Positions 30,793-44,298 of a DNA stretch of 44,503 nucleotides are shown piece after piece. Source of the DNA: a virus; the IMG/VR virus record IMGVR_UViG_3300046006_003927, positions 1 to 44,503 of that record, one strand, 5' to 3'. The position numbers were made by a program, and so were the translations under genes. How positions within the stretch are numbered: the first letter of the stretch is position 1; the number at the start of each line of letters is the position of its first letter. The notes beneath the pieces are model-generated. The model did not search any database. It was not told where the DNA came from and saw nothing but the letters and a program-made list of their open reading frames with translations.

Positions 30793-30820
30793 TTGACTTA
30801 TTGTTATTTTGGTTCATGGT
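30793..30820 (+). promoter_or_regulatory. sigma70-like promoter for the RNA ligase
   Basis: TTGACT at 30793-30798, a 16-bp spacer, CATGGT at 30815-30820. The ligase ATG at 30830 leaves a leader of only a few bases. Confidence 0.45.
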
Positions 30821-30829
30821 AATACAATT

Positions 30830-33482: not shown

Positions 33483-33485
33483 ATT

Positions 33486-33548
33486 TGTACTAGGTTTGGT
33501 GTTCCAACCATTCCGAAGATATATAGCAAACACTAAATACGCAGTACA
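33486..33548 (+). ncRNA. non-canonical RNA unit 1
   Basis: TGTACT/AGTACA closes a 63-nt unit. An inner TTTGGTGTT/AACACTAAA helix encloses CCGAAGATAT. It is followed by GCAAATTT, close to the CCA-N-TTT trailer of the neighbouring tRNAs. No tRNA arms are recognisable. Confidence 0.35.
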
Positions 33549-33559
33549 GCAAATTTTTT

Positions 33560-33645
33560 GGCTTATTATACCGCTAAGGACGCGGTTCGCACTGTAAATG
33601 CGAAGCCCTCGGGCTGGGTTGGTTCGATACCGACATAAGCCACCA
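33560..33645 (+). tRNA. tRNA-Tyr(GTA)
   Basis: Acceptor GGCTTAT/ATAAGCC, A73, CCA. Anticodon arm TCGCA-CTGTAAA-TGCGA. Long class II variable arm and T-arm GTTGG-TTCGATA-CCGAC. Confidence 0.95.
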
Positions 33646-33652
33646 TTTTTAT

Positions 33653-33728
33653 CCGCTTATAGCTCAATTGGCAGAGCACGCTCTTTATAGGGGCATGGTT
33701 GTGGGTTCAACTCCTACTGGGCGGACCA
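33653..33728 (+). tRNA. tRNA-Ile(TAT)
   Basis: Acceptor CCGCTTA/TGGGCGG, A73, CCA; D-stem GCTC/GAGC. The anticodon loop TTTATAG gives TAT (AUA codons). T-arm GTGGG-TTCAACT-CCTAC. It reads AUA directly, without the usual lysidine-modified CAT tRNA. Confidence 0.82.
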
Positions 33729-33739
33729 ATTTATAATAC

Positions 33740-33827
33740 GGAAAGTTGGCAGAGTGGTCTAATGCAGGACTTTGCTAAAGTCCCGATCCGAAAGGGTCCA
33801 TAGGTTCGAATCCTATATTTTCCGCCA
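33740..33827 (+). tRNA. tRNA-Ser(GCT)
   Basis: Acceptor GGAAAGT/ATTTTCC, G73, CCA. Anticodon arm GGACT-TTGCTAA-AGTCC. Long variable arm with a CCGAAAGG hairpin. Class II as expected. Confidence 0.95.
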
Positions 33828-33828
33828 A

Positions 33829-33897
33829 ATTTAGATTCTTGCAAGACGGTGTTCCTTTGAATTGCAATTCAATCGAAGTGACCGCAGCTGAAGTCAG
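33829..33897 (+). ncRNA. non-canonical RNA unit 2 (5' part)
   Basis: Contains the palindromic hairpin TTGAATTGCAATTCAA followed by TCGAAG. Its end GTCAG pairs with CTGAC at 33972-33976, enclosing the CAT tRNA-like sequence. No T-arm of its own. Confidence 0.3.
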
Positions 33898-33967
33898 TGG
33901 TGAATGATATAATGGCATTATTTCTCCCATAAAGGAGAATATCTGGGTTCGACTCCCAGTTTACCGA
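33898..33967 (+). tRNA. tRNA-like, anticodon CAT, no CCA
   Basis: Acceptor TGGTGAA/TTTACCG. Anticodon arm TTTCT-CCCATAA-AGGAG with C at position 33. Normal T-arm CTGGG-TTCGACT-CCCAG. The D region is 3 nt short and irregular, and CCA is not encoded. It is held inside a GTCAG/CTGAC helix. Either a degenerate Met tRNA or one needing host CCA addition. Confidence 0.5.
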
Positions 33968-33993
33968 AAAGCTGACATGAGGCAAAACTTTAC

Positions 33994-34068
33994 GCCGAAT
34001 AAACATAAATGGTAATGTGCTAGTCTTGTAAACTAGATAAGCGGGTTCGATTCCCGCATTTGGCTCCA
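33994..34068 (+). tRNA. tRNA-Thr(TGT)
   Basis: Acceptor GCCGAAT/ATTTGGC, T73, CCA. Anticodon arm CTAGT-CTTGTAA-ACTAG. T-arm GCGGG-TTCGATT-CCCGC. Confidence 0.93.
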
Positions 34069-34071
34069 ATT

Positions 34072-34145
34072 TGTAGGTCGCAATATTCTGAATTATAATT
34101 CAGCGAAGATATTCCAATTATTGCGTTAGTGGAATTCGCCTATAA
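34072..34145 (+). ncRNA. non-canonical RNA unit 3 (tRNA-sized)
   Basis: A 74-nt unit closed by a 7-bp acceptor-like helix TGTAGGT/GCCTATA. It contains hairpin CTGAATTATAATTCAG, then CGAAGAT, then ATTCC/GGAAT with a 15-nt loop. It has tRNA length but no canonical D or T arm and no CCA. Confidence 0.4.
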
Positions 34146-34153
34146 CAATTTAT

Positions 34154-34229
34154 GCCGTGTGACATAGCTGGTTGTGATGACTCCTCTGCAAAAGGATGGA
34201 GATTGGTTCGATTCCAATACGCGGCTCCA
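34154..34229 (+). tRNA. tRNA-Cys(GCA)
   Basis: Acceptor GCCGTGT/ACGCGGC, T73, CCA. The loop CTGCAAA gives GCA. T-arm ATTGG-TTCGATT-CCAAT. One mismatch at the top of the anticodon stem. Confidence 0.88.
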
Positions 34230-34237
34230 ATTTATAT

Positions 34238-34311
34238 GCGGGATTAGTTTAGTGGTAGAATGTGACATTGCCAATGTCGATACGGGAGTTCGATTCTCCC
34301 ATCCCGCACCA
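34238..34311 (+). tRNA. tRNA-Gly(GCC)
   Basis: Acceptor GCGGGAT/ATCCCGC, A73, CCA. The anticodon arm carries TTGCCAA, and the T-arm CGGGAG-TTCGATT-CTCCC region is normal. Confidence 0.93.
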
Positions 34312-34313
34312 CT

Positions 34314-34439
34314 TTGACAGGATGGAATGGGCGTCGTATAGTTGGTAAATCAACTTGCAGTCCAACGTGAACCAACCCAGCAGCAACGAAGCGTGAGAAA
34401 AGTTGAGTTCTCATGTGAAGCTAGTAGAAGTTCTGTCAA
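34314..34439 (+). ncRNA. non-canonical RNA unit 4
   Basis: 126 nt closed by TTGACAG/CTGTCAA. It includes a D-arm-like TAGTTGGTAAATCA, a GTTGG/CCAAC pairing, a TGAGAA/TTCTCA hairpin, AACGAAGCG and AAGCTAGTAGAAG. No T-arm, no CCA. Confidence 0.35.
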
Positions 34440-34448
34440 TAATTTTAT

Positions 34449-34526
34449 GGCCATGTGACGTAACTGGATAAACGTGTTAGTTTTAGAAACTAAATTCTGT
34501 GGGTTCGAGTCCCACCTTGGCTACCA
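34449..34526 (+). tRNA. tRNA, anticodon TAG (Leu codon CUA), short variable loop
   Basis: Acceptor GGCCATG/CTTGGCT (one mismatch), A73, CCA. D-stem ACGT/ACGT. Anticodon arm TTAGT-TTTAGAA-ACTAA. T-arm GTGGG-TTCGAGT-CCCAC. The variable loop is only 5 nt, whereas bacterial Leu tRNAs are class II. The charging identity is therefore uncertain. Confidence 0.8.
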
Positions 34527-34530
34527 TTTT

Positions 34531-34607
34531 AGGTCGAAACAATGAGTTGCATAAATTCAATGAAACGGTTGGTTAATAACCAACAGCCACTTTTCTTGGC
34601 GCGACTT
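34531..34607 (+). ncRNA. non-canonical RNA unit 5
   Basis: AGGTCG/CGACTT closes 77 nt. The middle hairpin GTTGG-TTAATAA-CCAAC has a 7-nt anticodon-like loop. A second hairpin GCCA-CTTTTCT-TGGC also has a 7-nt loop. tRNA-like in outline but not canonical. Confidence 0.4.
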
Positions 34608-34611
34608 TTAA

Positions 34612-34735
34612 TTTTGATAGTGTATGTGTTTTCGTCTCTAAAATCTTACGGCACATGGAAGACGTGTAACGGGTTCAAAGTCCGACCACTTTGCATTGAG
34701 CAGAGTGAGTAAGCCAACCATATACATTATCAAAA
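34612..34735 (+). ncRNA. non-canonical RNA unit 6 with 17-bp terminal stem
   Basis: TTTTGATAGTGTATGTG pairs with CATATACATTATCAAAA over 17 positions (two G-U), the longest closing stem in the array. Inside is a T-arm remnant CGGG-TTCAAAG-TCCG directly followed by ACCACTTT, i.e. CCA plus the usual trailer, but without an acceptor partner. Confidence 0.45.
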
Positions 34736-34742
34736 AATTTAT

Positions 34743-34818
34743 GGGAGTTTGGTGAAGGCGGTCCTCACGTCGCACTGAAGATGCGAAGAAGTTGGTTCAA
34801 TTCCAACAGCTCCCACCA
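34743..34818 (+). tRNA. tRNA-Phe(GAA)
   Basis: Acceptor GGGAGTT/AGCTCCC, A73, CCA. D-stem GTGA/TCAC. Anticodon arm TCGCA-CTGAAGA-TGCGA. Confidence 0.93.
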
Positions 34819-34824
34819 TTTTAT

Positions 34825-34898
34825 TGAGATATGTTGTAGTGGTAGCAACGGAGTCTTTGAAACTCTTAGTCTTGGTTCGATTCCAAGTATCTCAGCCA
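34825..34898 (+). tRNA. tRNA-Gln(TTG), copy 1
   Basis: Acceptor TGAGATA/TATCTCA, G73, CCA. The anticodon loop CTTTGAA gives TTG. Identical over all 74 nt to the copy at 35131. Confidence 0.93.
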
Positions 34899-35041
34899 GT
34901 TTGAGAAACCTATACCAATAGGTGTATAAGCCGAACGGCCCGAGAGGGATGGACGTGAGCTATAGCATGGATGTGTAATCGAAAGAGTATCCACCAAGAC
35001 TTGTTCTTGGCGCAAAAATCCATTGTGACAACACCTCAAAC
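34899..35041 (+). ncRNA. non-canonical RNA unit 7
   Basis: 143 nt closed by GTTTGAG/CTCAAAC. Internal hairpins CCTAT-ACCA-ATAGG, CCC-GAGA-GGG and CCAAGA-CTTGT-TCTTGG are strong. It contains TCGAAAGAGTATCC. No tRNA arms or CCA. Confidence 0.45.
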
Positions 35042-35047
35042 ATTTAT

Positions 35048-35123
35048 CGGAGTGTGGTGACAAAGGTTGTCGATTCGTTTTGGAAACGAAATTATGCAGG
35101 TTCGAGTCCTGTCACTCCGACCA
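35048..35123 (+). tRNA. tRNA-Pro(TGG), copy 1
   Basis: Acceptor CGGAGTG/CACTCCG, A73, CCA. Anticodon arm TTCGT-TTTGGAA-ACGAA. Paralogue of the tRNA at 36553, with paired compensatory changes in three stems. Confidence 0.93.
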
Positions 35124-35130
35124 CTTTTAT

Positions 35131-35204
35131 TGAGATATGTTGTAGTGGTAGCAACGGAGTCTTTGAAACTCTTAGTCTTGGTTCGATTCCAAGTATCTCA
35201 GCCA
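35131..35204 (+). tRNA. tRNA-Gln(TTG), copy 2
   Basis: Exact duplicate of 34825-34898, including the TTTTAT leader, 306 nt downstream. A recent duplication. Confidence 0.93.
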
Positions 35205-35211
35205 TTTTTAT

Positions 35212-35286
35212 TGCGATATAGTGTTAAGGTAGCACAGCCCGACTGTTAATCGGGAAGTGATGGTTCAAGTCCATCTTTCGCAGCCA
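35212..35286 (+). tRNA. tRNA-Asn(GTT), copy 1
   Basis: Acceptor TGCGATA/TTTCGCA (one mismatch), G73, CCA. Anticodon arm CCCGA-CTGTTAA-TCGGG. Confidence 0.9.
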
Positions 35287-35290
35287 TTTT

Positions 35291-35447
35291 ATTATACAAC
35301 AACTGCGGAGATAGTAATTCCAAAAAAGTTGTTACTGTATGAGTAGAAGATATCGTGAATTAATTACTATGTCACGTGAAGCGAAAAATATAGGATAATA
35401 TAAAGGTGAAGCCTCATCTTGAATGGGTTAAATTCCCAAAGGCATTT
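35291..35447 (+). ncRNA. non-canonical RNA unit 8 with pseudoknot
   Basis: AACAACT (35298) pairs with AGTTGTT (35327), and ATAGTAATT (35311) pairs with AATTACTAT (35362). The two helices interleave as an H-type pseudoknot. Further on, a T-arm-like TGGG-TTAAATT-CCCA lies between GCC and GGC before ATTTTT. Confidence 0.45.
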
Positions 35448-35451
35448 TTAT

Positions 35452-35529
35452 TCTCATCGGGCTGGCATGGTGTTAAGCACGTGACTGTTAATCACGATAA
35501 GCGTGGATCGTTACCACGGGTGGGAGCCA
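35452..35529 (+). tRNA. tRNA-Asn(GTT), copy 2
   Basis: Acceptor TCTCATC/GGTGGGA, G73, CCA. Anticodon arm CGTGA-CTGTTAA-TCACG. The T-loop ATCGTTA departs from TTCNANT. Unrelated in sequence to copy 1. Confidence 0.85.
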
Positions 35530-35530
35530 A

Positions 35531-35653
35531 TTTAATGTAGCTGAGAACGGATGCAAGCGGTATACCGAAACGCCGAAAGGTTGACCTTGGAAACAAGCGG
35601 TATGTGTCGATACAAAAGTATCATAACAGAGTGGAACTCACACTCTCATTAAA
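35531..35653 (+). ncRNA. non-canonical RNA unit 9 (tRNA with insertion-like centre)
   Basis: TTTAATG/CATTAAA acceptor-like stem, D-arm-like GCT...AGC, variable-arm-like GATAC-AAAA-GTATC and T-arm-like GAGTG-GAACTCA-CACTC. The anticodon region is replaced by about 60 nt containing a direct repeat CAAGCGGTAT (35554 and 35594). No CCA. Confidence 0.45.
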
Positions 35654-35663
35654 AATTTTATAT

Positions 35664-35742
35664 GGAACTAAAGCCACAGTGGACGGGCAGCGGTCTTTTA
35701 AACCGTTAATTCGTGTGGGTTCAACTCCCACTGGTTCCACCA
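35664..35742 (+). tRNA. tRNA-Lys(TTT), copy 1
   Basis: Acceptor GGAACTA/TGGTTCC, A73, CCA. Anticodon arm GCGGT-CTTTTAA-ACCGT. T-arm GTGGG-TTCAACT-CCCAC. Confidence 0.93.
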
Positions 35743-35772
35743 TTTTGTTAGCTTTTTTGTACATATGAGTTA

Positions 35773-35780
35773 TATTTATA
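35773..35780 (+). promoter_or_regulatory. TATTTATA box (putative late promoter)
   Basis: TATTTATA in TTATATTTATAG, 22 nt before the start at 35803. Confidence 0.5.
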
Positions 35781-35802
35781 GAAATACCACCATTATTTAC
35801 AT

Positions 35803-36228
35803 ATGAAAAAAAGCGAACTTAAAGATATTATAGCCGAATGCGTTACCGAAGTCATTCAAGAACAAGGTTTACCAGAAGGTTGGGGACAAGACATGTTGAA
35901 AGGTTTGAAGAAGACCTTCACGGGCGATGGTCCAGACAGTGGAGCAGCACATTATGATAGAAATGCAAAAATGCACAATAAACGCGTGGATTACAGTAAA
36001 GCATCTATCGGAGATAAGTCTAAGATGCGGGCCGGAGCAAGAAAAACGGTAGAGGCTTCGAAACAAGAATTTGAAACTAAGTTAAAAGAAATGCTGCGCA
36101 GTGCATTCGTAGAAGCCGAATCAGTCGGAATGAAGCGCGAAGACGTAACAAAAGCATTTCGTTCCGCAATCACGAGTATTTTTAACAAATATAAAAGACT
36201 CGAAGAGATAGCAGAAGAACAACAATAA
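35803..36228 (+). CDS. putative internal head protein, MKKSEL family
   Basis: 141 residues. N-terminal MKKSELKDIIAECVTEVIQE ends in I-Q-E, the (I/L)-x-E pattern of T4 capsid-targeting peptides. The rest is hydrophilic, Lys/Glu-rich and helical with no enzyme motif. A TATTTATA box precedes it and it sits isolated inside the tRNA array. Packaging is inferred from the shared N-terminus with 10355 and 42817. Confidence 0.65.
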   Translation: MKKSELKDIIAECVTEVIQEQGLPEGWGQDMLKGLKKTFTGDGPDSGAAHYDRNAKMHNKRVDYSKASIGDKSKMRAGARKTVEASKQEFETKLKEMLRSAFVEAESVGMKREDVTKAFRSAITSIFNKYKRLEEIAEEQQ

Positions 36229-36238
36229 TTTTTAGGTG

Positions 36239-36369
36239 ATGTGTGAGGTTTCACTGACTCACACTTAGTCGAGAAGCTCGATAACCTTTTGGGTGTGAGG
36301 GGCGACTATCGTGTCGCCGACATCTTTGGTCCCCACCAATTTGTCGCAATGGGGCAATACCTCACACAT
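36239..36369 (+). ncRNA. non-canonical RNA unit 10
   Basis: 131 nt closed by a perfect 10-bp ATGTGTGAGG/CCTCACACAT. Inside are TCGAG-AAG-CTCGA and GGCGAC-TATCGT-GTCGCC hairpins. CCCCACCAATTT also lies inside, which looks like an acceptor end with CCA and trailer. Confidence 0.5.
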
Positions 36370-36380
36370 ATAATTTATAT

Positions 36381-36463
36381 AGCAGAGACAAGCCAAGGGA
36401 CGCTGAGTGCGCTCATAACGCATCCGAAAGGTATGATGGATTCGATTTCCATCTCTGCTACCA
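36381..36463 (+). tRNA. tRNA, anticodon CAT, with extended variable arm
   Basis: Acceptor AGCAGAG/CTCTGCT, A73, CCA. Anticodon arm GTGCG-CTCATAA-CGCAT. The variable region is about 12 nt with a CCGAAAGG mini-hairpin like the Ser tRNA. T-arm ATGGA-TTCGATT-TCCAT. A Met-type anticodon on a class II-like body is unusual. Confidence 0.8.
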
Positions 36464-36474
36464 ATTTCGTATTC

Positions 36475-36540
36475 GTGTTTCGGACCAAAAGAATATAGAG
36501 TGACATACGACTCTTTCAATTGGAAAAATCAGAGCACCCA
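36475..36540 (+). ncRNA. non-canonical RNA unit 11, CCA-ended
   Basis: GTGTTT pairs with GAGCAC, immediately followed by CCA-ATTT. An inner hairpin AGAGT/ACTCT has an 8-nt loop. At 66 nt it is shorter than a tRNA and lacks a D-arm. Confidence 0.4.
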
Positions 36541-36552
36541 ATTTATTTTTAT

Positions 36553-36628
36553 CAGTGTGTGGTGCAAGAGGTTGGCGATTCCGCTTGGAACGGAAATTAT
36601 GTAGGTTCGAGTCCTATCACACTGACCA
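36553..36628 (+). tRNA. tRNA-Pro(TGG), copy 2
   Basis: Acceptor CAGTGTG/CACACTG, A73, CCA. Anticodon arm TTCCG-CTTGGAA-CGGAA. Paralogue of 35048 with compensatory pair changes, indicating selection for structure. Confidence 0.93.
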
Positions 36629-36639
36629 ATTTTTAACAT

Positions 36640-36685
36640 ACACAGTAGTCCTCTTGATTTATATCAATGTCAATAATGGCTGTGT
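36640..36685 (+). ncRNA. non-canonical RNA unit 12 (46 nt)
   Basis: ACACAG/CTGTGT closes a 46-nt unit with hairpin TTGAT-TTAT-ATCAA. Smallest of the closed units. Confidence 0.35.
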
Positions 36686-36693
36686 GAAACTTT

Positions 36694-36770
36694 GGAGTGG
36701 GAGCTTATGAAGCACAAGCAATAGATTGTCAATCTATAGAAAGTCGGTGCAAATCCGATGCACTCCGCCA
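36694..36770 (+). tRNA. tRNA-Asp(GTC), copy 1
   Basis: Acceptor GGAGTGG/GCACTCC (one mismatch), G73, CCA. Anticodon arm ATAGA-TTGTCAA-TCTAT. T-arm GTCGG-TGCAAAT-CCGAT. Confidence 0.9.
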
Positions 36771-36804
36771 ATTTTACGATTTGAATATGGACGCATATTC
36801 ATTC

Positions 36805-36883
36805 GTCGCGTCTGATTCAAGGTGACTGGCAGTCCTTGTGGCTGGGTTCTAGACTAAGTTGTTTCGACTACAACGGCGCGACA
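36805..36883 (+). tRNA. tRNA-like, no CCA, anticodon arm unresolved
   Basis: Acceptor GTCGCGT/GCGCGAC (7 bp) and a textbook T-arm GTTGT-TTCGACT-ACAAC. The middle 45 nt have the right length but offer only GATT/AGTC and AGTC/GACT pairings, so no standard anticodon loop forms. CCA is absent. Confidence 0.45.
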
Positions 36884-36897
36884 TATTTAAATTTTAT

Positions 36898-36973
36898 GGT
36901 GTTATAGTGTAAAGGTCGCACTGGCTGATTGTCAATCAGCAAGACGGGGTTCGAGTTCCCCGTAACACCGCCA
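36898..36973 (+). tRNA. tRNA-Asp(GTC), copy 2
   Basis: Acceptor GGTGTTA/TAACACC, G73, CCA. Anticodon arm GCTGA-TTGTCAA-TCAGC. Standard cloverleaf. Confidence 0.93.
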
Positions 36974-36980
36974 CTTTGAG

Positions 36981-37006
36981 TCGCAATATGGAAACATATA
37001 TGCCGA
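36981..37006 (+). other. short GAAA-tetraloop hairpin
   Basis: TCGCA and ATATG pair with CATAT and TGC-CGA around a GAAA loop, followed by TTTT. A spacer hairpin between two tRNAs. Confidence 0.4.
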
Positions 37007-37014
37007 TTTTATAT

Positions 37015-37090
37015 GCGCACGTCGTCCAACTGGATAGGACATCAGATTACGAATCTGAGAATTAGGGTTCGAATCCCTACGAGCGCACCA
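37015..37090 (+). tRNA. tRNA-Arg(ACG)
   Basis: Acceptor GCGCACG/CGAGCGC (one mismatch), A73, CCA. Anticodon arm TCAGA-TTACGAA-TCTGA. A34 would need host TadA to become inosine. Confidence 0.92.
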
Positions 37091-37096
37091 TTTTAT

Positions 37097-37173
37097 GGAG
37101 ACGCTGGCAAAGTAGAGCCGACCTCGCTTCGAACGAGTTATAACTATAGGTTAGAGTCCTATCGCCTCCACCA
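37097..37173 (+). tRNA. tRNA-Arg(TCG)
   Basis: Acceptor GGAGACG/CGCCTCC (one mismatch), A73, CCA. The loop CTTCGAA gives TCG. T-arm ATAGG-TTAGAGT-CCTAT. Reads CGA without inosine. Confidence 0.88.
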
Positions 37174-37176
37174 ATT

Positions 37177-37334
37177 TTTGAGCGGCAGCGTGGAAGGACA
37201 TGCAGCCTTGAGAAGTTCTATTACGCACAGTATAGTGTACATAAAGCTGTGCCTCTGAAACGAAGCGATGACTACCTAATAGATCGGGTCAGATTCAATG
37301 TCATCAATAGGTATCAATTCCTATCCGACTCAAA
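37177..37334 (+). ncRNA. non-canonical RNA unit 13
   Basis: 158 nt closed by TTTGAG/CTCAAA (extended by CGG/CCG). Hairpins CACAG/CTGTG and GATGAC/GTCATC. T-arm-like ATAGG...CCTAT next to the 3' stem. Contains AACGAAGCG, shared with unit 4. No CCA. Confidence 0.45.
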
Positions 37335-37338
37335 TTAA

Positions 37339-37546
37339 TTTTGAATAGCAGCTCGGAGTGTAGAAAAGTTTTTCCCTTTTCGGTACGAGCATGGGGTTAA
37401 ACCATCAGCGGAAAAATAAGCAACGAAAAGCCTCTAAGTTCATAACAATATGTTAAATGGGAAAATAATAACATGTTGGAATTTATGCGCAAACAGGAAA
37501 CTCGCTATAGTGTAGATATATAAAGCAAAACTACATCTATTCAAAA
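37339..37546 (+). ncRNA. non-canonical RNA unit 14 (208 nt)
   Basis: A perfect 10-bp terminal stem TTTTGAATAG/CTATTCAAAA. An inner hairpin ATGG-GGTTAAA-CCAT with a 7-nt loop. Longest unit in the array, no reading frame, no CCA. Confidence 0.45.
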
Positions 37547-37549
37547 ATT

Positions 37550-37644
37550 TTTGGATATGTTGCGGAACGTCTAGACAATTAACGCAAAGCTAGTCAAAGA
37601 GAATTAACATTCTTGATTGTAAGTTCAAATCTTACCTATCCAAA
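37550..37644 (+). tRNA. tRNA-like with enlarged D region, no separate CCA
   Basis: Terminal stem TTTGGATA/TATCCAAA and T-arm GTAAG-TTCAAAT-CTTAC are good. A TTGCG/CGCAA stem with an 18-nt loop replaces the D-arm. An AAGAG/TTCTT stem with an 8-nt loop could present TAA. It contains AAGCTAGT. Reading as Leu is only a guess. Confidence 0.4.
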
Positions 37645-37655
37645 TTTTTTAATTT

Positions 37656-37836
37656 ACAGAGAGTTAAGGGTACAGCCATTGGAATATCGCAGTGGGTTCA
37701 TGTAGCGTAATAAGCACTCTTGACCAAACACTTTCTAATATTTGGACAGAAGTCTAGTTGTTTGTAAAACAGGAGTCGGTGTAATCATATTGATGTTTTT
37801 CAACAGGCAACCGTGCGCGGAATAATCGGGTGCTGT
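37656..37836 (+). other. non-coding spacer with hairpins
   Basis: 180 nt between RNA units. Hairpin CCAAA/TTTGG near 37720 and weak end pairing ACAG/CTGT. No frame or tRNA arm resolved. Confidence 0.3.
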
Positions 37837-37844
37837 TCATTTTT

Positions 37845-37920
37845 GGCCCTATAGAATAATGGTTGAGTTCGCCTGCCTTTCAAGCAGGAGAGCCGGGATC
37901 GTGACCCGGTGGGGCTACCA
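37845..37920 (+). tRNA. tRNA-Glu(TTC)
   Basis: Acceptor GGCCCTA/TGGGGCT, A73, CCA. Anticodon arm CCTGC-CTTTCAA-GCAGG. T-arm CCGGG-ATCGTGA-CCCGG. Confidence 0.92.
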
Positions 37921-37921
37921 A

Positions 37922-38048
37922 TTTGTCATCATTGAGGGCAGAAATATGAAATAGCAGTGGTGTAATGGTAGCACAGGGACAGCAAATCTTGCGATATGGT
38001 TCGATTCCATGCAGTGAAAAATAAGTCTGAGCGACCTGAAATGACAAA
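37922..38048 (+). ncRNA. non-canonical RNA unit 15 containing a degenerate tRNA
   Basis: TTTGTCAT/ATGACAAA outer stem and TCATTG/CAGTGA inner stem. Inside are a D-arm-like GTG...TAATGGTA...CAC and a T-arm ATGG-TTCGATT-CCAT. The anticodon-like loop CAGCAAA (GCA with A33) has weak pairing. No CCA. Confidence 0.45.
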
Positions 38049-38056
38049 AATTTTTG

Positions 38057-38262
38057 TTGAGGAGGTTGGTCTAGAGGCAGCAATCCTATAATGAGTAGAG
38101 TCCGTACTCCAAGCTAGTAAAAGTGCAGCGATGAATTCTCGAATTCTGCATTTCCCATTACCAACTATAATGGTTCGCGTGGAGGCAATTCAGACGCGAA
38201 CCGATAAGAACTACGGAATTGACCTTAGCTCGGTGCCGAAAATGTAAGCGCAAATATAGTTG
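38057..38262 (+). ncRNA. non-canonical RNA units 16/17 with alternative pairing
   Basis: GTTGGT (38065) can pair with ACCAAC (38160). The overlapping CAACTATA (38162) can instead pair with TATAGTTG (38255). Independent hairpins GAGTA-7nt-TACTC, TGCAG/CTGCA and the 9-bp GGTTCGCGT/ACGCGAACC (38172-38202) are strong. Contains AAGCTAGTAAAAG. Confidence 0.4.
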
Positions 38263-38330
38263 TTATATATTTGGCCGCGAAACGGTGTTAGCTCTTTTGG
38301 CGTAATAGCACACTCTTCAAAAATATTTAA
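38263..38330 (+). other. spacer with tRNA-5'-half-like sequence
   Basis: Contains TTAGCTCTTTTGGCGTAAT, resembling a tRNA D-arm, without a T-arm or acceptor partner before the next tRNA begins. Confidence 0.3.
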
Positions 38331-38332
38331 AT

Positions 38333-38411
38333 GGCGATATCGTCTATGTTTGGAAAGGACAGGATATTCTCAATATTCAAAGGTCGGTTCGACTCCCGAC
38401 TATCGCCACCA
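38333..38411 (+). tRNA. tRNA-Glu(CTC)
   Basis: Acceptor GGCGATA/TATCGCC, A73, CCA. Anticodon arm GGATA-TTCTCAA-TATTC. T-stem GTCGG/CCGAC with an 8-nt loop. Confidence 0.85.
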
Positions 38412-38413
38412 TT

Positions 38414-39772
38414 TTATGTTTTCCATTTACGAATTAAGTTTTTCAACTTGATTCTGTGCTCGCGGATTTTTTGCTTACTGCGCAATCTGATATAATTAGC
38501 AACTTCCTCCGCGCCACCAAAAGTTAACATTTCAACTATATCGTTAATATCTTTTGGAATAAATTTTTCTTGGGTCTGTGGGTCGGCGAACATGTATGTT
38601 TGATTTGAAGAATTTCGATATGCTTGATATTTTTTCATCGCATTCCCTAACACACTTTCTAGATTGAAATCGGATAATCTCACCAAGTTTTCGTAACTAG
38701 AATCGTCCAATACACCGCGAACAATATTTGACATTGGTTTGCCGTAAGTTTTAATATTCACAACGTGTGTTATAGCGTTGGTGATTTGGTCGAGATAATC
38801 TCCGTCGTAACTTTTCAAGAACTTGGTCAAATCTTTAGAGAGGAATACACCATTGTCTCTTCCATGATGAAAGATGCACCACCACGCTAAGTTTTTTCCC
38901 AGCGCATCGTAATCTTCGGTTCCTAGATATTCTTCTAGGTCGTCCTCTATACGACCGTCGTCTAGGATGTTATAATGTTCTGCTATTAGCGTAGACAGTT
39001 TAGGAACAAACTCGTCGCCATGATCTTTTACCCACTCTTCGTTTTTCTTTTCTTCCACTTCTTGCTGTCTGTCTGAAATATTGCTTTCATCGTCATCAAG
39101 GTATTCCGTTAATTTTTCCATTGCTTCTTCCGGCAATATTTCTGATAAATATTCCCCCGGTCTAGACATGGTATGGTCCTGAGAATTATACAATGTCCAA
39201 TCACGACTGTTCGCCCCGGACGGAGAGAGCAACGCCAATCGAGCCATTGGTTTTTCAGATTCTCGGTCATGTATAAGAATTACGGTGTTTTCAGAGTAGT
39301 AATCCTGCCAATAATCTTCGCTGCTTGAAATACACCAGTTGGTTTTTCCGGCTGCAAAATTTCCAACTGCATCTTGTGAGCGCGGACCGACAATTAAAAA
39401 TCTGTCATCTTCGTAAATCAGTTCGGTGTCTGCGGCTAATTTTTCTCTGTTGCTAAGTTTCTTCGCGGCTTCGTCGGTGGCTCGGACAAACTCTTCATAA
39501 GTTTTGTACTTGTTGATGTCAATGCTTGATAGCTTGTTGAAGTGCACCTTAATTCTCTGTAACAAATCATTAGCGAACACTTTGTTTTCAATTTTGTCGG
39601 ATACGGTGACGATCTTTCCAAGCCAGTCGAGATACTTCTTGTTGGCGGTAAAGTCGCCATCTATAAGTAAGTTCTGCATCCATAATGGGAGGTTTACGTA
39701 TTTCTCTTGAAAGTCAGAAACTCGACTTTCCAGCAATAAATATGGCAATAAAGATGATAATTTGATGTGCAT
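38414..39772 (-). CDS. putative virion-packaged protein with WCIS-type domain
   Basis: 452 residues on the minus strand. N-terminus MHIKLSSLLPYLLLES has L-L-E, a possible prohead-protease site. A central domain contains GKTNWCISSSEDYWQDYYSE, TVILIHDRESEKPMARLAL and a D-W-TLYNSQDHTM end. I know this Trp-Cys pattern from large-phage proteins without assigned function. The C-terminal third is helical and basic. A TATTTATA box (minus strand) lies 7 nt upstream. Convergent to the tRNA at 38333, ending 3 nt from it. Confidence 0.7.
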   Translation of the reverse strand: MHIKLSSLLPYLLLESRVSDFQEKYVNLPLWMQNLLIDGDFTANKKYLDWLGKIVTVSDKIENKVFANDLLQRIKVHFNKLSSIDINKYKTYEEFVRATDEAAKKLSNREKLAADTELIYEDDRFLIVGPRSQDAVGNFAAGKTNWCISSSEDYWQDYYSENTVILIHDRESEKPMARLALLSPSGANSRDWTLYNSQDHTMSRPGEYLSEILPEEAMEKLTEYLDDDESNISDRQQEVEEKKNEEWVKDHGDEFVPKLSTLIAEHYNILDDGRIEDDLEEYLGTEDYDALGKNLAWWCIFHHGRDNGVFLSKDLTKFLKSYDGDYLDQITNAITHVVNIKTYGKPMSNIVRGVLDDSSYENLVRLSDFNLESVLGNAMKKYQAYRNSSNQTYMFADPQTQEKFIPKDINDIVEMLTFGGAEEVANYIRLRSKQKIREHRIKLKNLIRKWKT

Positions 39773-39779
39773 TAGTAAT

Positions 39780-39787
39780 TATAAATA
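39780..39787 (-). promoter_or_regulatory. TATTTATA box (putative late promoter)
   Basis: On the minus strand TATTTATA, 7 nt before the start of the 452-aa gene. Confidence 0.5.
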
Positions 39788-39836
39788 TAATGCAGTGATT
39801 ATAATAAACGATTTTACAGAATTTGATTTATAATAT

Positions 39837-39911
39837 GGTGTGGTAGAACAATGGTAGTTCAACGTCTTGATAAGGCGAAGGTTGTGGGTTCGACTCCCAC
39901 CCGCACCACCA
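39837..39911 (+). tRNA. tRNA-Ile(GAT)
   Basis: Acceptor GGTGTGG/CCGCACC, A73, CCA. The anticodon loop TTGATAA gives GAT. T-arm GTGGG-TTCGACT-CCCAC. One mismatch at the top of the anticodon stem. Confidence 0.9.
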
Positions 39912-39915
39912 ATTT

Positions 39916-39990
39916 GAAGAAGTAGCTCAGAGAAAGAGCGCCGGTGTTTCAACGTCTGTGAGGTCGGTGGTTCAAGTCCACCCTTCTTCG
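39916..39990 (+). tRNA. tRNA-like, no CCA, anticodon unresolved
   Basis: Acceptor GAAGAAG/CTTCTTC with G73, D-stem GCTC/GAGC and T-arm GGTGG-TTCAAGT-CCACC are perfect. The anticodon region offers GTTTCAA (TTC) or CTGTGAG (GTG) loops but neither has a good 5-bp stem. The 3' end is GATA, not CCA. Confidence 0.6.
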
Positions 39991-39999
39991 ATATTTTAT

Positions 40000-40076
40000 G
40001 GGGTCGCATGTACTAAGGATAGCGACGGATACTTGCAATATCTGTGATGTGAGTTCGATTCTCACCGATTCCACCA
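40000..40076 (+). tRNA. tRNA-Ala(TGC), copy 1
   Basis: Acceptor GGGGTCG/CGATTCC, A73, CCA. Anticodon arm GGATA-CTTGCAA-TATCT. T-arm GTGAG-TTCGATT-CTCAC. Confidence 0.9.
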
Positions 40077-40078
40077 AT

Positions 40079-41641
40079 TTAACTTGGATCATATCCAAAC
40101 TCATGAAGACTATCGCCTGTAGTAAATAAATGCATAGCCGAAACAGTCTTTGTTAAGATTTTATAATCTCCCATAAGAGTATTTCTGCCGTGACTAATAG
40201 CGTATCTTTTATTTATTGTCACCCAATCACCGGGATTGATTTTTAAACCTTTCAATTTCTTCGATTTGAGCGCGTCCATCTCAGCAAACAATTTTTCAAG
40301 CAAAGCGTCTTTGTTATATTTTAACTCGGGATATAAATCGGAATATTTACTGCCTACTGGTAAAAATCCAAATTTCATGATGTACCCGGCAACGGTTGAT
40401 ATATCTTTAATTTTATTATCCGTGTCTTTGTTTAAGTTTGGTACTGCCCTGTATATTCTAACTTGCTTGTTGGGGTTTCCTCTTGCACTTTGTATTATAG
40501 ATACGGTCTCAGCATCACTGTATTCAGTTGATCGATCCCCATAATATTGTTCGGCCTTCGATGAATAAACATCGTCTGGATAAATTTTTGTTAAATCGTG
40601 CAATGGTGCTCCGCCATCTTTATCTGGCGCACGGTGTTGACCTTTATAATCTTCTTGTTCAGACAATTTTAATTGGTCACGCTGGTCGTTTGATATAGCG
40701 TTTTTACTTTTTAGTTTATCAAAGAACAACTTCACTCTTGGGTCGGATGATAATAAACTATCGGATGCTGCCTCTTCCATCCAGTGTTCTAATAAAGTTG
40801 TCAAATCCTCGCGGTTGACGGCGTTGTTAATCAAAATATTTTTGTCTTTTATATCACCCTTAAATCTCATTGGAACATTTGATCCCACTTTTTTATATCC
40901 AATTTTTTCTAATTGATTGGATATTTTTTCCGGAACTGCAAAAATAGCCGGTGTGGATGAGTGTAGCAAATCCAATAGCATATCTATACCAGTTTTACCA
41001 GTCTCGGGTGCAAAATGCGAAACGGCAAATGTATCACCGATGAATTGACCAACGAGATAATCTTTGGAGTTATATGGATTATAAATAGTCCCATGTCCGC
41101 TTTGTAAATGTGAAATTAAATCGGTAGGATTTATACCTGCACGAACCGCGTATTTTTCGTAGTTATCTTGAATAGTATGTGCTTCTTCTTCACCTGTAAC
41201 ATCTCTAAAATTTGAAGATAGCCGAGTATCGGATTGCGGCAACTTAGTTACTGTATATGCCTCAGATACCTTACTTGTATTTATTTTTTCCGATTTTATT
41301 ATTTTTATTTGCCGTGGAGAAAATACAAAACAGTCAAATTGACCATCAGCGTCTTTGAGGATTACTCCATCAAATCCATTACCTTTAATCTGACCAAGAC
41401 CAAGCTTGTCGTATTCATCCCACCCAGCAGGATTATTAATGGTGACTTCGGCAGTAATTAGGTAACCTTTACCTTGTGCACCCGCTTCGTTTGACAATAT
41501 TTTGTTTTTATCAGACGTAAACCATATAATACCTTGAGTAGTTTTTTTCAAGTCAAACTTTTTAAATTTTGAACCTGTTCCATGATACACAGTCAATGGT
41601 TTCGACTGAATCTCGTTAAGTAAATCTTTTAATTTAATCAT
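40079..41641 (-). CDS. ADP-ribosyltransferase-like, multi-domain (Alt-like candidate)
   Basis: 520 residues, minus strand. MIKLKDLLNE is followed by IQSK, mimicking the T4 Alt capsid-targeting peptide with L-N-E as cleavage site. An N-terminal ART-like domain follows (VYHGTGSKFKKFDLKK, IIWFTSD, GFDGVILKD, CFVFSPRQIK). Residues about 170-290 resemble a phage acetyltransferase-like region (LLHSSTPAIFAVPEKISNQL). The C-terminal ART-like module has VRIYRAVP, NPGDWVTINKRYAISHG and GDSLHEFGYDP. Like T4 Alt it may be injected to ADP-ribosylate host proteins. Co-transcribed with the SWIM-like gene 6 nt upstream. Confidence 0.75.
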   Translation of the reverse strand: MIKLKDLLNEIQSKPLTVYHGTGSKFKKFDLKKTTQGIIWFTSDKNKILSNEAGAQGKGYLITAEVTINNPAGWDEYDKLGLGQIKGNGFDGVILKDADGQFDCFVFSPRQIKIIKSEKINTSKVSEAYTVTKLPQSDTRLSSNFRDVTGEEEAHTIQDNYEKYAVRAGINPTDLISHLQSGHGTIYNPYNSKDYLVGQFIGDTFAVSHFAPETGKTGIDMLLDLLHSSTPAIFAVPEKISNQLEKIGYKKVGSNVPMRFKGDIKDKNILINNAVNREDLTTLLEHWMEEAASDSLLSSDPRVKLFFDKLKSKNAISNDQRDQLKLSEQEDYKGQHRAPDKDGGAPLHDLTKIYPDDVYSSKAEQYYGDRSTEYSDAETVSIIQSARGNPNKQVRIYRAVPNLNKDTDNKIKDISTVAGYIMKFGFLPVGSKYSDLYPELKYNKDALLEKLFAEMDALKSKKLKGLKINPGDWVTINKRYAISHGRNTLMGDYKILTKTVSAMHLFTTGDSLHEFGYDPS

Positions 41642-41647
41642 GATATA

Positions 41648-42193
41648 TTATTCTTCGTAAGTTATATCAAATTGTCGATTTTGGTCCACTACTTCATCGA
41701 GCTTGCCGGACAGTGTTGGTTGGAGACTTGCTGATAATTTCTTTTTTAGGCCATCTTTTAAAGCTAACAGATGTTTGCAAAGTCCCGGACGATTTTCCGG
41801 ATTTAACATATCTGCTGGCATTCCATTAGATTTATTCAAACTATTGAATCCTAATGGACTTGCTCCTTTTTTATTGTTAGCGTATGCCCAACGAAATTTA
41901 TAATCTGGACATCCACAATCAACTTCGCACATGAGTCTATCTGGGCGAGTAACTTCTTTAGATTTTGGAAATGTAATTCTACCTTTCCAAGATTTACCCG
42001 TGGTGTTATTATCTGGCGCACTTCTAAAAGAGAAATTCCAGTATCTTTCATCTCTGTTAGACAGAACGGGCAATGTTTGTACTTTCATATTCTTCGCTCG
42101 GTTCTTTCTGGACGGCGTGGACGAATTGAATAATTGGTAAAAACTCATTCTCTCGGTCAATAGGCTGCGAGCAAGGTTTGCTAGTGAAATCAT
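41648..42193 (-). CDS. SWIM zinc-finger-like protein
   Basis: 181 residues, minus strand. It carries CEVDCGCPDYKFRWAYANN and, after about 35 residues, GLCKHLLAL, giving the C-x-C...C-x-H ligands of a SWIM finger. The same pattern occurs in structural proteins of cyanophages and other T4-like phages. N-terminus MISLANLARSLLTE ends in L-T-E, a possible prohead-protease site. First gene of a two-gene minus-strand unit with the ADP-ribosyltransferase. Confidence 0.75.
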   Translation of the reverse strand: MISLANLARSLLTERMSFYQLFNSSTPSRKNRAKNMKVQTLPVLSNRDERYWNFSFRSAPDNNTTGKSWKGRITFPKSKEVTRPDRLMCEVDCGCPDYKFRWAYANNKKGASPLGFNSLNKSNGMPADMLNPENRPGLCKHLLALKDGLKKKLSASLQPTLSGKLDEVVDQNRQFDITYEE

Positions 42194-42196
42194 ATG

Positions 42197-42204
42197 TATA
42201 AATA
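42197..42204 (-). promoter_or_regulatory. TATTTATA box (putative late promoter)
   Basis: Minus-strand TATTTATA, 3 nt before the SWIM-like start. Confidence 0.5.
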
Positions 42205-42235
42205 TAGGTTAGATGTTATAAAATGTAAAGATAAC

Positions 42236-42311
42236 GGGGAAATAGCTCAATTGGTAGAGCACCGCATTTGCAATGCGAAGGTTGTGGGTTCGAGCCCCAT
42301 TTTCTCCACCA
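42236..42311 (+). tRNA. tRNA-Ala(TGC), copy 2
   Basis: Acceptor GGGGAAA/TTTCTCC, A73, CCA. D-stem GCTC/GAGC. The loop TTTGCAA gives TGC. Host-like D-arm sequence, distinct from copy 1. Confidence 0.92.
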
Positions 42312-42339
42312 TTTATAGTAAACAGTATGCGTGCTTATT

Positions 42340-42657
42340 ATGCAAAACATATACTATAATCCAAAAGAATGCGGTTTAGAAATTGTCGATGTACTTGACG
42401 ACCCTCAAGACTACGCGTTTAATACTCTATTGATAGTTCGGGCGACCGACACCAATCGAGTGTATTACGCAGCAAGTGCGGGGTGTTCTTGTCCCGTCCC
42501 GTTCGAAGAATATCATTATGCTTCGGCTGATGATAACGATTTGAACGAGGTGACATATGAGACGTTAGACAGCTTCATTAATGTAGTGAATAATTTTCCT
42601 GTTTCCATTGATGAAAGAAAAGATGCTATCCGCAAGGTTGAAGCACTATTAAAGTAA
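42340..42657 (+). CDS. DUF7574-like protein
   Basis: 105 residues from ATG 42340 (MQNIYYNPKECG); a GTG three codons earlier is also in frame. YYNPKECGLEIVDVLDDP, FNTLLIVRATDTNRVYYA and SAGCSCPVPFEEYHYAS match the DUF7574 pattern seen in many phages. Conserved Cys-x-Cys near the middle. Role unknown. It lies between two tRNAs and is followed by a small terminator-like hairpin. Confidence 0.75.
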   Translation: MQNIYYNPKECGLEIVDVLDDPQDYAFNTLLIVRATDTNRVYYAASAGCSCPVPFEEYHYASADDNDLNEVTYETLDSFINVVNNFPVSIDERKDAIRKVEALLK

Positions 42658-42670
42658 ACATCGGAGTCGA

Positions 42671-42688
42671 GGGAGAAATCCCTTTTTT
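42671..42688 (+). terminator. small terminator-like hairpin
   Basis: GGGA-GAAA-TCCC followed by TTTTTT, ending exactly where tRNA-Lys begins. Confidence 0.5.
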
Positions 42689-42764
42689 GGTCTTATAGCT
42701 CAATCGGTAGAGCAGGAAGCTTTTAACTTCTTGGTTCGGGGTTCGAGTCCCCGTGGGACCACCA
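42689..42764 (+). tRNA. tRNA-Lys(TTT), copy 2
   Basis: Acceptor GGTCTTA/TGGGACC, A73, CCA. D-stem GCTC/GAGC. The loop CTTTTAA gives TTT. More host-like than copy 1. Confidence 0.94.
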
Positions 42765-42805
42765 TTTACATTAAATATAATAAGTAAATTTAAAATTGAA
42801 GTATA

Positions 42806-42813
42806 TATTTATA
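42806..42813 (+). promoter_or_regulatory. TATTTATA box (putative late promoter)
   Basis: TATTTATA in GTATATATTTATATTT, 3 nt before the start codon at 42817. Confidence 0.5.
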
Positions 42814-42816
42814 TTT

Positions 42817-43278
42817 ATGAAAAAATCCGAATTAAAATCTTTGATAAAAGAAGTAATACAAGAAATCGAGCTTAACCCTGAATATAGTGTGAATTCAGAC
42901 GAACAGGTAAGAATTGCAATAAGACGCAGTTATAAACCCTTCCCAAAAGCGAAATTTTCCTCCCCCAACGAGGAATTATTTCAAAAATATCTTCGAGCCG
43001 CACAAGCTTGGGCTGCTCAAAATTTAGCGGATTCGAAAAACGGTGCATTGTTATCAAAGCAAGGAAAATTACACACGAGAATAAGACCAGACGCTAAAGA
43101 TAGTGACCTAGTTTTACGGTTTGACGACGGATATGAAAATTTTGATGAGTTTCTATTAGACTACGACCAAAAACAAATAAGTCAGCATGAATATATATGG
43201 ATTTCGCCGCGACATATTGCAAAATACGTAATGGGAGAAGTGGCGGACAGAATCGTAATTCCGGGAGAAACAAAATAA
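42817..43278 (+). CDS. putative internal head protein, MKKSEL family
   Basis: 153 residues from ATG 42817; an upstream TTG in frame would add seven hydrophobic residues encoded by the late box itself, so it is rejected. MKKSELKSLIKEVIQE gives I-K-E and I-Q-E sites as in capsid-targeting peptides and is nearly identical to the starts at 10355 and 35803. The mature part is mixed and moderately charged, with QHEYIWISPRHIAKYVMGE near the end. Unknown function. Confidence 0.7.
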   Translation: MKKSELKSLIKEVIQEIELNPEYSVNSDEQVRIAIRRSYKPFPKAKFSSPNEELFQKYLRAAQAWAAQNLADSKNGALLSKQGKLHTRIRPDAKDSDLVLRFDDGYENFDEFLLDYDQKQISQHEYIWISPRHIAKYVMGEVADRIVIPGETK

Positions 43279-43289
43279 TAAAATTTTAT

Positions 43290-43365
43290 GCTGGGGTAGC
43301 ATAGTGGCTAATGCAGCGCGTTTACATCGCGCCTATCGGGGGTTCGAGTCCCTTCTCCAGTACCA
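43290..43365 (+). tRNA. tRNA-Val(TAC)
   Basis: Acceptor GCTGGGG/CTCCAGT, A73, CCA. Anticodon arm GCGCG-TTTACAT-CGCGC. T-arm GGGGG-TTCGAGT-CCCTT. Confidence 0.92.
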
Positions 43366-43366
43366 A

Positions 43367-43449
43367 TTTCAATATAAAAAACCAGTATAGCCCAAAGATA
43401 ATTCAGCGGTCTGGGGTGATGCATCACTTGTCTGTTTGGGATATTGAAA
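43367..43449 (+). ncRNA. non-canonical RNA unit 18
   Basis: 83 nt closed by a perfect 9-bp TTTCAATAT/ATATTGAAA. Second helix CCCAAA/TTTGGG, and palindromic GTGATGCATCAC inside. No T-arm, no CCA. Confidence 0.45.
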
Positions 43450-43490
43450 CTAATTTAATGTGATGAGCCCTAGTTTTTGTATTTGGTATA

Positions 43491-43498
43491 TATTTATA
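43491..43498 (+). promoter_or_regulatory. TATTTATA box (putative late promoter)
   Basis: TATTTATA in GGTATATATTTATATT, 4 nt before the NUDIX start. Confidence 0.5.
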
Positions 43499-43502
43499 TT
43501 AC

Positions 43503-43892
43503 ATGATAAAATTGAAAGACTTGATCGGAACACCGTTTGCAGTGTTTGTTTTAGCCAAAGCAAATGGTGGATATGCTGCTACAACTCGTGCAGCTGATCG
43601 CAATGAGCAAGGAAGAATTGGATTGCCCGGTGGAAAAGTTGATATTGGCGAATCGCCAGTTGAAGCAGTAACAAGAGAAGCTAAAGAAGAAGGATGGGAA
43701 GTAAAAGTAACAAACACAACACCCATACACACACAATTGGTTGATGGAAAACTTGTGCATTGGTATGCTGGAGAATCTGCCATAAAATTGAATAATTTCA
43801 AAGAAAAGGGAAGAATAACTCCCATAGTTGCAACTCGTGAACAGATTTTATCTTCTGGTTATGGAAATGAAAATCTGTACAATCATATATAA
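43503..43892 (+). CDS. NUDIX hydrolase
   Basis: 129 residues. The Nudix box is intact: GGKVDIGESPVEAVTREAKE followed by EGWEV, with all acidic metal ligands. Such enzymes cleave nucleoside diphosphates linked to another group. Candidate substrates are mutagenic dNTPs, NAD/ADP-ribose or RNA caps. The first seven residues MIKLKDL are identical to those of the ADP-ribosyltransferase-like protein. With the late box this suggests a packaged, co-injected enzyme, though no clear (I/L)-x-E site follows. Confidence 0.88.
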   Translation: MIKLKDLIGTPFAVFVLAKANGGYAATTRAADRNEQGRIGLPGGKVDIGESPVEAVTREAKEEGWEVKVTNTTPIHTQLVDGKLVHWYAGESAIKLNNFKEKGRITPIVATREQILSSGYGNENLYNHI

Positions 43893-44298
43893 TTTAGCAG
43901 TTACGACGTTCTGAAACAAACGATCCAGCCTACTGTTCCGCTGTAACCCGAGCAGTTGCATTTTTGGTAAACGTGAAAAGAAATAGTAAAGAATAGAACA
44001 CGAGTCATCGTACTTGTGTCACACTAGGCTATCCATCTAGCTCCTTAATAGGAATAAATTTACAACCATCTTCTTTCAGTATAACAAGTGCTCAAAACTT
44101 GTTCGTTCATATGTTTTCGTAAAAGCATATCAACAGAAGCAGTGGATTGGTTCAATCGTTAGTTCTTTTGCGTAAAAAGACAATATTTGTCACTCAATGC
44201 CTCTTAACAATGCACAATTTTAAGTGAGTTTTACGGCAGTTACAGGGGTAGCCCCTTGGGTGGGAGGCGCACACCAAATCACGCCTATTCTATTTTTA
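43893..44298 (+). other. non-coding region with several hairpins
   Basis: No gene seen. Hairpins CACGAGT/ACTTGTG (43999-44018), AACAAGT-GCTCAAA-ACTTGTT (44083-44103, 7-nt loop), ATATG...CATAT (44109-44130) and GGGG-TAG-CCCC (44245-44255) stand out. They probably form further non-canonical units. Confidence 0.4.

Follow-up and report, generated by a model that had tools for sequence, protein, structure and literature searches.

Stem-closed RNA genes in a phage tRNA array, including a predicted free-standing mimic of the ribosomal GTPase-associated centre

Stable RNAs other than tRNAs have been described beside the tRNA genes of phage T4, namely rnaC (139 nt) and rnaD (119 nt), the 'species 1 and 2' RNAs. 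The leaders of ribosomal-protein mRNAs, e.g. those of L1 and L10, act in cis and imitate the protein-binding sites of ribosomal RNA (rRNA). GOLLD and ROOL are large, ornate RNAs of phages and prophages that are often found near tRNA islands and whose function is unknown (PMC12286853). We analysed a stretch of viral DNA of 44,503 bases, corresponding to positions 1 to 44,503 of the IMG/VR record IMGVR_UViG_3300046006_003927 (hereafter the window), which harbours a long tRNA array interspersed with non-canonical RNA units. We delimited ~21 such units of 41 to 268 nt, and those reported below are all on the plus strand. One of them, unit o3 (38057-38320), is predicted to be a mimic of the GTPase-associated centre (GAC) of 23S rRNA, the uL11-binding site with helices 43 and 44 (H43 and H44).

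The o3 unit is closed by an 8-bp stem (38057-38064/38313-38320) and is composed of an H43-like segment (~38061-38095), an inserted helix with a variable domain, and an H44-like segment (38296-38313). Its 1067-loop motif GGTCTAGAGGCAGC (38068-38081) exactly matches GGYYTAGARGCAGC and is unique in the window, with 0.02 occurrences expected. The H44-like segment, TTTGGCGTAATAGCACAC, includes the 1095 loop GCGUAAUAGC. Thus, both core motifs are exact and unique in the window (0.02-0.03 expected). Using nhmmer, we identified a distant homologue of o3 at locus L109. Over positions 1055-1088 of E. coli 23S rRNA, the RNA gene of L109 matches at 34 of 34 bases (E=4e-10), and it harbours the H44 segment GCGTAATAGC further on. 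The other matches between units and E. coli 16S, 23S or 5S rRNA (E 0.1-0.9) were rejected, since that many queries would give such hits by chance; L109 alone stands out.

Many of the presumed phage records matched by L109 carry host 23S rRNA, and these were set aside. A scan of IMG/VR for the 3' motif by itself yielded at least 120 matching stretches. In the 80 IMG/VR loci examined, together with L109 and eight named phages, the 5' motif was present 80 to 394 nt upstream of the 3' motif in 82 cases and absent in seven; among the matches listed, 73 IMG/VR loci recruited by the 3' motif also carry the 5' GAC motif. The same scan of GTDB genomes gave 80 matches in the loci examined, of which 14 also carry the 5' motif; one or more of these 14 are doubtful. 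The GAC mimics comprise at least 74 distinct sequences, and the o3 family, like that of unit n1 described below, extends far beyond the clade of the window. GAC mimics were found in isolated phages, including Pseudomonas phages pf16, Astolliot, UNO-G1W1 and Milchi, Aeromonas phage 4_4572, Serratia phage BF, Cronobacter phage GAP32, the Erwinia pEa_SNUABM phages and Xanthomonas phage XacN1, and therefore they are not assembly chimaeras. In pf16, a phage of Pseudomonas putida, the mimic is flanked by tRNA-Asn and tRNA-Pro. No RNA feature is annotated at these loci, and in a few the annotation has a hypothetical protein spanning the RNA. In 44 of the 74 loci, a tRNA is found within 1 kb, on the same strand in all 44 cases and in many at no more than 10 nt; 40 loci are within 300 nt of a tRNA, compared with 25 when positions are drawn at random from these contigs. 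A common insert motif, approximately CACCCC-GGARACGG-TAAGGC, precedes the H44 segment at loci L122, L125, L126, L127, L129 and L109, which hints at a subfamily of GAC mimics with a conserved insert.

Analyses of 68 in-register sequences revealed covariation in the closing stem, in two pairs of H43 (1057-1081 and 1058-1080), in the 1082-1086 tertiary pair and in an inserted 4-bp helix (p<=0.0005 relative to shuffles), all at positions that fall outside both search patterns. The tertiary pair is TA in 39 sequences, CG in 15 and AT in 8, with 97% standard pairs overall compared with 63% after shuffling. In the inserted helix, nucleotides +3 to +6 after position 1088 pair with nucleotides -1 to -4 before TTTGG. 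At this one fixed place, a variable domain of 53 to 367 nt (median 131 nt) replaces positions 1089-1090, so that the three-way junction of the GAC becomes a four-way junction; a plain three-way junction without insert was not found among the GAC mimics. The presence of a covarying helix between 1088 and 1091 argues for a mimic rather than an rRNA fragment. The window's o3 has all the family features, with both core motifs, the 8-bp closing stem and an inserted helix starting with A-T/G-C/A-T/G-C.

A second unit of the window, n1 (37174-37341), is predicted to be a mimic of the tRNA elbow devoid of both anticodon arm and CCA. It is composed of an acceptor-like stem (37177-37182/37329-37334), a D-arm-like hairpin (~37184-37207), a variable insert and a T-arm-like hairpin starting at 37307. 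The hairpin GGCAGCGTGGAAGGACATGCAGCC stands where the D-arm of a tRNA would be, and the n1 pattern is unique in the window, with none expected. The same plan is seen in relatives from IMG/VR contigs and from Acidovorax phage AP1, their closing stems being unrelated in sequence yet complementary, e.g. CACATCGGGAG/CTCCCGATGTG and GCTGACGG/CCGTCAGC. Several related arrays harbour a 117-nt tRNA-like unit between the Gly and Leu tRNAs, at the place of unit d (34314-34439) of the window, which itself has no member of that family. The 117-nt RNAs keep the acceptor stem, D-arm and T-arm, and a structured insert replaces the anticodon arm; their 24 distinct sequences show 97% pairing versus 80% when shuffled. 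We also observed in the relatives G011, G014, G009, G006 and G004 (seed G014_1556) a tRNA-shaped unit with CCA, in which the T-loop GGCAGTA replaces TTCRANN, with changes on both sides of a stem in 9 of 21 pairs.

The units as a whole are very probably maintained, independently folding RNA genes and not decaying tRNAs, because they recur, their stems stand up to shuffle controls, they covary, and they share spacers with the tRNAs but lack CCA. In ~13 related phage arrays they are found as discrete cassettes, at the same or shuffled positions, and the gap lengths between given tRNAs are repeated (Leu-216-Phe, 165 nt before Asn, Thr-85-Cys, Gly-117-Leu). Most units with homologues are 91-99% identical over their full lengths, with ends at the spacers, while the adjoining coding DNA is 67-70% identical; some homologues have identities as low as 73-86%. 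As the true tRNAs show the same mosaic pattern between arrays, the units behave like tRNA genes, i.e. they are conserved, discrete and exchangeable. Such homologues, covariation and cassette boundaries confirm the proposal of an earlier note on this DNA that structured, non-canonical units lie between the tRNAs. The note had counted 18 to 20 units of 46-208 nt, a fair count with too narrow a size range, and had correctly seen that the units run into the same A/T spacers as the tRNAs, since TTTTAT, ATTTAT and the like follow both. It had also described closing stems recurring from unit to unit. A shuffle control, which the note had named, covered 54 non-redundant gaps (36 to 280 nt; 13 related arrays). 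In 44% of them, the terminal stem outperforms dinucleotide shuffles at p<0.05 (5% expected), with a mean z-score of -1.63 for the minimum free energy (MFE); the description does not hold for units h (35287-35451) and k (36464-36552) or for the 5' part of the 33828-33993 gap, where no significant closing stem was found.

CCA is encoded in 320 of 329 called tRNAs, compared with 1 of 25 units with strong stems. Covariation in related phages, which the note had put forward as a check, was detected in several families of four to eight sequences each. For units a, e, n2 and n4 and two units of the relatives, both-side changes are more frequent than in shuffles, and pairing is far better than with slid partners. 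No covariation was seen in l1 (36639-36686) or n5 (37743-37839), both of which are uninformative in this respect as their divergence is too low. In the loci scanned, no unit matched GOLLD, ROOL, transfer-messenger RNA (tmRNA) or other Rfam families above the gathering score, tRNA being the only family reported, and the tRNA model RF00005 does not list n1, n3 or o2 even at E<=10. An abiF-like match at 44191-44227 (E 0.82) was discarded as a chance hit.

The best overall explanation, to which we give an even chance, is an array of stem-closed RNA genes, some of which would be mimics of translation RNAs acting in trans on host proteins. Judging from their positions and spacers, the units probably share transcripts with the tRNAs, from which they would be released at the common A/T spacers. 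Comparisons between phages show that they are kept by selection and swapped as cassettes. The mimics would most likely act in trans, as ligands of host proteins that recognize the copied elements, with uL11 as the putative partner of the GAC mimic, and tRNA-elbow binders or tRNA-directed defence factors as those of the elbow mimic. Titrating or redirecting such proteins might alter translation or blunt the host response, e.g. RelA/(p)ppGpp signalling. As uL11 is required for the activation of RelA on the ribosome, stringent signalling is a natural target for a GAC mimic. Our confidence in binding or titration of host translation proteins as the mechanism falls somewhat short of even. The earlier note had listed decoy or sponge RNAs among its readings, and this one is favoured in view of o3, which mimics the uL11 site in 23S rRNA, and of n1, which mimics a tRNA elbow, the binding and titration being presumed. 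More broadly, we tentatively propose that large phages express a toolkit of translation-RNA mimics from their tRNA arrays, the commonest of which would be a trans-acting copy of the GAC that captures uL11 or its partners in the infected cell and so reprogrammes host translation or stringent signalling.

Several points weigh against trans-acting mimicry. The MFE of o3 is not unusual (z=-0.85). In 30 of the 74 GAC-mimic loci, no tRNA was found within 1 kb in the stretch examined. The search patterns account in part for the invariance of the 3' motif and of positions 1062-1075, and shuffling leaves shared ancestry in place. Nevertheless, the pair types are so varied, with a given pair occurring in as many as all four Watson-Crick forms, that descent alone is an unlikely cause of the covariation of the GAC mimics. 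Free uL11 is possibly scarce next to ribosomes, in which case titration would call for high levels of RNA. Lastly, many units have no detectable mimicry, which makes a single function for all of them doubtful; nor is one required.

Alternatively, the rRNA- and tRNA-like cores might be scaffolds that provide stability and precisely processed ends, the acceptor stem and T-arm for RNase P and the GAC fold for stability, the function itself residing in the variable inserts, e.g. as antisense RNAs or regulators. The inserts of the GAC mimics indeed vary strongly in length and sequence around constant cores, and the 117-nt tRNA-like family shows the same design. Nevertheless, we consider this unlikely, as the GAC fold would be an odd scaffold whose exact uL11 and 1067/1095-loop features are not needed for stability, and a non-systematic search found no shared targets of the inserts. 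The units might also be decoys for specific defence factors of the host that cleave tRNA or rRNA or bind to it, such as anticodon nucleases or ribosome-dependent toxins, with the mosaic turnover reflecting an arms race. Consistent with this are the rapid swapping of units at fixed positions, the many tRNA-like units without anticodon arm, and the RNA ligase gene near the array, the RNA ligase of T4 being part of tRNA repair. However, anticodon nucleases cannot be lured by units that lack the anticodon arm, the conservation of the cores argues for an invariant target, and we know of no defence factor acting on the GAC, all of which leaves the decoy scenario improbable. It is more doubtful still that the GAC and elbow mimics bind tRNAs or each other and so assist the phage tRNAs, as chaperones or in processing. 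They often lie among tRNA genes of the same strand, and in the ribosome the GAC contacts the elbow of the incoming tRNA, but many GAC mimics are located away from tRNAs and free GAC RNA is not known to bind tRNA well. That the units are decaying tRNAs, intron remnants or neutral spacers is hardly tenable, as it is contradicted by the compensatory changes, kept lengths and tRNA-level identity of the conserved families despite diverged coding DNA, and by 74 GAC mimics with an insert at one point, even though some units are tRNA-derived without CCA and decay is still possible for units without homologues (33834-33990, 34899-35041 and 36239-36369). For most units, the earlier note's suggestion of degenerate tRNAs is thus wrong, since they are conserved like true tRNAs, show compensatory changes and in several cases have no tRNA part; its other suggestion, precursors of odd tRNAs, fits no unit well because they lack CCA and most of them an anticodon arm.

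The other units of the series are diverse, and the four stems singled out in the earlier note, those of f, j, n2 and p below, proved exact. Unit a (33485-33549) has a 7-bp closing stem and belongs to a clade-specific family with six homologues and both-side changes in 5 of 21 pairs. Unit b (33834-33990), for which no homologue was found, holds a tRNA-like element (33898-33967) with a TAA-like loop and no CCA. Unit c (34071-34145; 8-bp closing stem) is 97-99% identical in G002 and G006, and unit d has a 10-bp closing stem (p=0.015). Unit e (34530-34607), closed by AGGTCG..CGACTT, has four homologues with both-side changes in 4 of 23 pairs. Unit f (34612-34735) is closed by 17 bp (34612-34628/34719-34735) and has eight homologues; five phages have it at 97-98% identity, and in G007, where the internal hairpin is altered, the identity is 86%. 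No homologues were found for g (34899-35041; 7-bp closing stem, p=0.035) or j (36239-36369; 11 bp, 36239-36249/36359-36369). Unit h is 98-99% identical in four phages, i (35531-35653; 7-bp closing stem) has a homologue of 78% identity in G006, and k, with a weak stem, is 99% identical in G007. The 8-bp stem of l1 shows no informative variation in six homologues. A true tRNA missed by ARAGORN, tRNA-Asp-like and with CCA (36694-36767), was found in one of the gaps. Unit l3 (36778-36893) has a homologue of 99% identity in G001, and m (36978-37010) is a hairpin within a 41-nt gap with a homologue in G002.

Unit n2 (37339-37546), closed by 10 bp (37339-37348/37537-37546), is represented by seven sequences with seven both-side-changed pairs. 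Unit n3 (37550-37644) is tRNA-derived, with an acceptor-like stem and a T-arm, a replaced D region and no CCA. For n4 (37658-37736), eight divergent sequences including L069 show both-side changes in seven pairs; this unit contains GCGTAATAAGCAC and was considered as a second GAC mimic, which was rejected since its homologues do not retain the motif. Unit n5 has a 7-bp closing stem and several homologues, the 8-bp closing stem of o2 (37922-38048) encloses a tRNA-like T-arm element, and p (43367-43449), closed by 9 bp (43367-43375/43441-43449), has a homologue of 80% identity in G006.

The window also carries T4-like replication genes (UvsX, a DnaB-type helicase, a DNA polymerase and RIIA), and the RNA ligase gene (30809-31855) precedes the array. 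By DNA polymerase, the closest named phage is Microcystis phage Mel-JY01, at 41% identity. Arrays are found in the same place in near-identical contigs and in the ~13 divergent relatives, whose RNA ligases are ~63-82% identical. When parts of the array were compared with named phages and plasmids, only tRNAs matched in the phages and nothing in the plasmids. The feature called tRNA-SeC(tca) (39915-39991) is tRNA-shaped with a UCA anticodon, lacks CCA and groups with the units; it has an identical copy (100%) in G007 and a variant with an altered T-loop in G006, and is possibly an opal-suppressor tRNA or a further unit of the series. The tRNA-Ala(tgc) (40000-40076) has an unusual-looking D-arm region and was assigned by a permissive Rfam scan to tmRNA, not tRNA (27.9 bits, E 3.7e-8, below the cut-off). 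Two identical copies of tRNA-Gln(ttg) (34825-34898 and 35131-35204) are separated by ~300 nt. Two small proteins encoded by single genes within the array (35803-36228 and 42796-43278) share a common start (MKKSELK...I..E), and related DNA is present in other arrays.

The GAC-mimic, n1 and 117-nt families are absent from Rfam 15, and a search of the open-licence literature, which does not cover subscription papers and most preprints, described none of them and yielded nothing relevant on the imitation of rRNA by phages or on uL11 or the GTPase centre in them. Free-standing phage RNAs copying a functional centre of the ribosome are thus undescribed as far as these searches show. If trans-acting mimicry is correct, rRNA would join the host molecules imitated by phage RNA, and it would offer a reading for the stable RNAs of the T4 tRNA cluster, long known without a function. 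As isolated phages that infect Pseudomonas, Serratia, Cronobacter, Erwinia, Aeromonas and Xanthomonas carry unannotated GAC mimics, the idea is directly testable.

Among known systems, rnaC and rnaD of T4 have the same position in a tRNA cluster as the units, and rnaC has a T-arm before its 3' end. T4 has two such RNAs versus ~20 here, and no GAC mimicry was seen in the region of its cluster that we examined. Taken alone, the units other than the GAC mimic would be of the rnaC/rnaD kind. GOLLD and ROOL are likewise borne by phages near tRNAs, but they share no core with the units and their Rfam models did not match in the loci scanned. Of the parts of a tRNA (RF00005), n1 and n3 have an acceptor-like stem and a T-arm, and the 117-nt family has both of these plus a D-arm, but the units have no CCA, mostly no ordinary anticodon arm, and variable inserts. 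The GAC of 23S rRNA (H42-H44) binds uL11 and is the thiostrepton site. From it the mimic retains H43 with the 1067 loop, the 1082-1086 pair and H44 with the 1095 loop, and it does not include the bL10-binding part of H42. Unlike the ribosomal GAC, it is free-standing, with its insert of 53-367 nt between 1088 and 1091 and a closing stem unrelated in sequence. Finally, ribosomal-protein leaders act in cis on their mRNAs, whereas the phage units stand alone between tRNAs.

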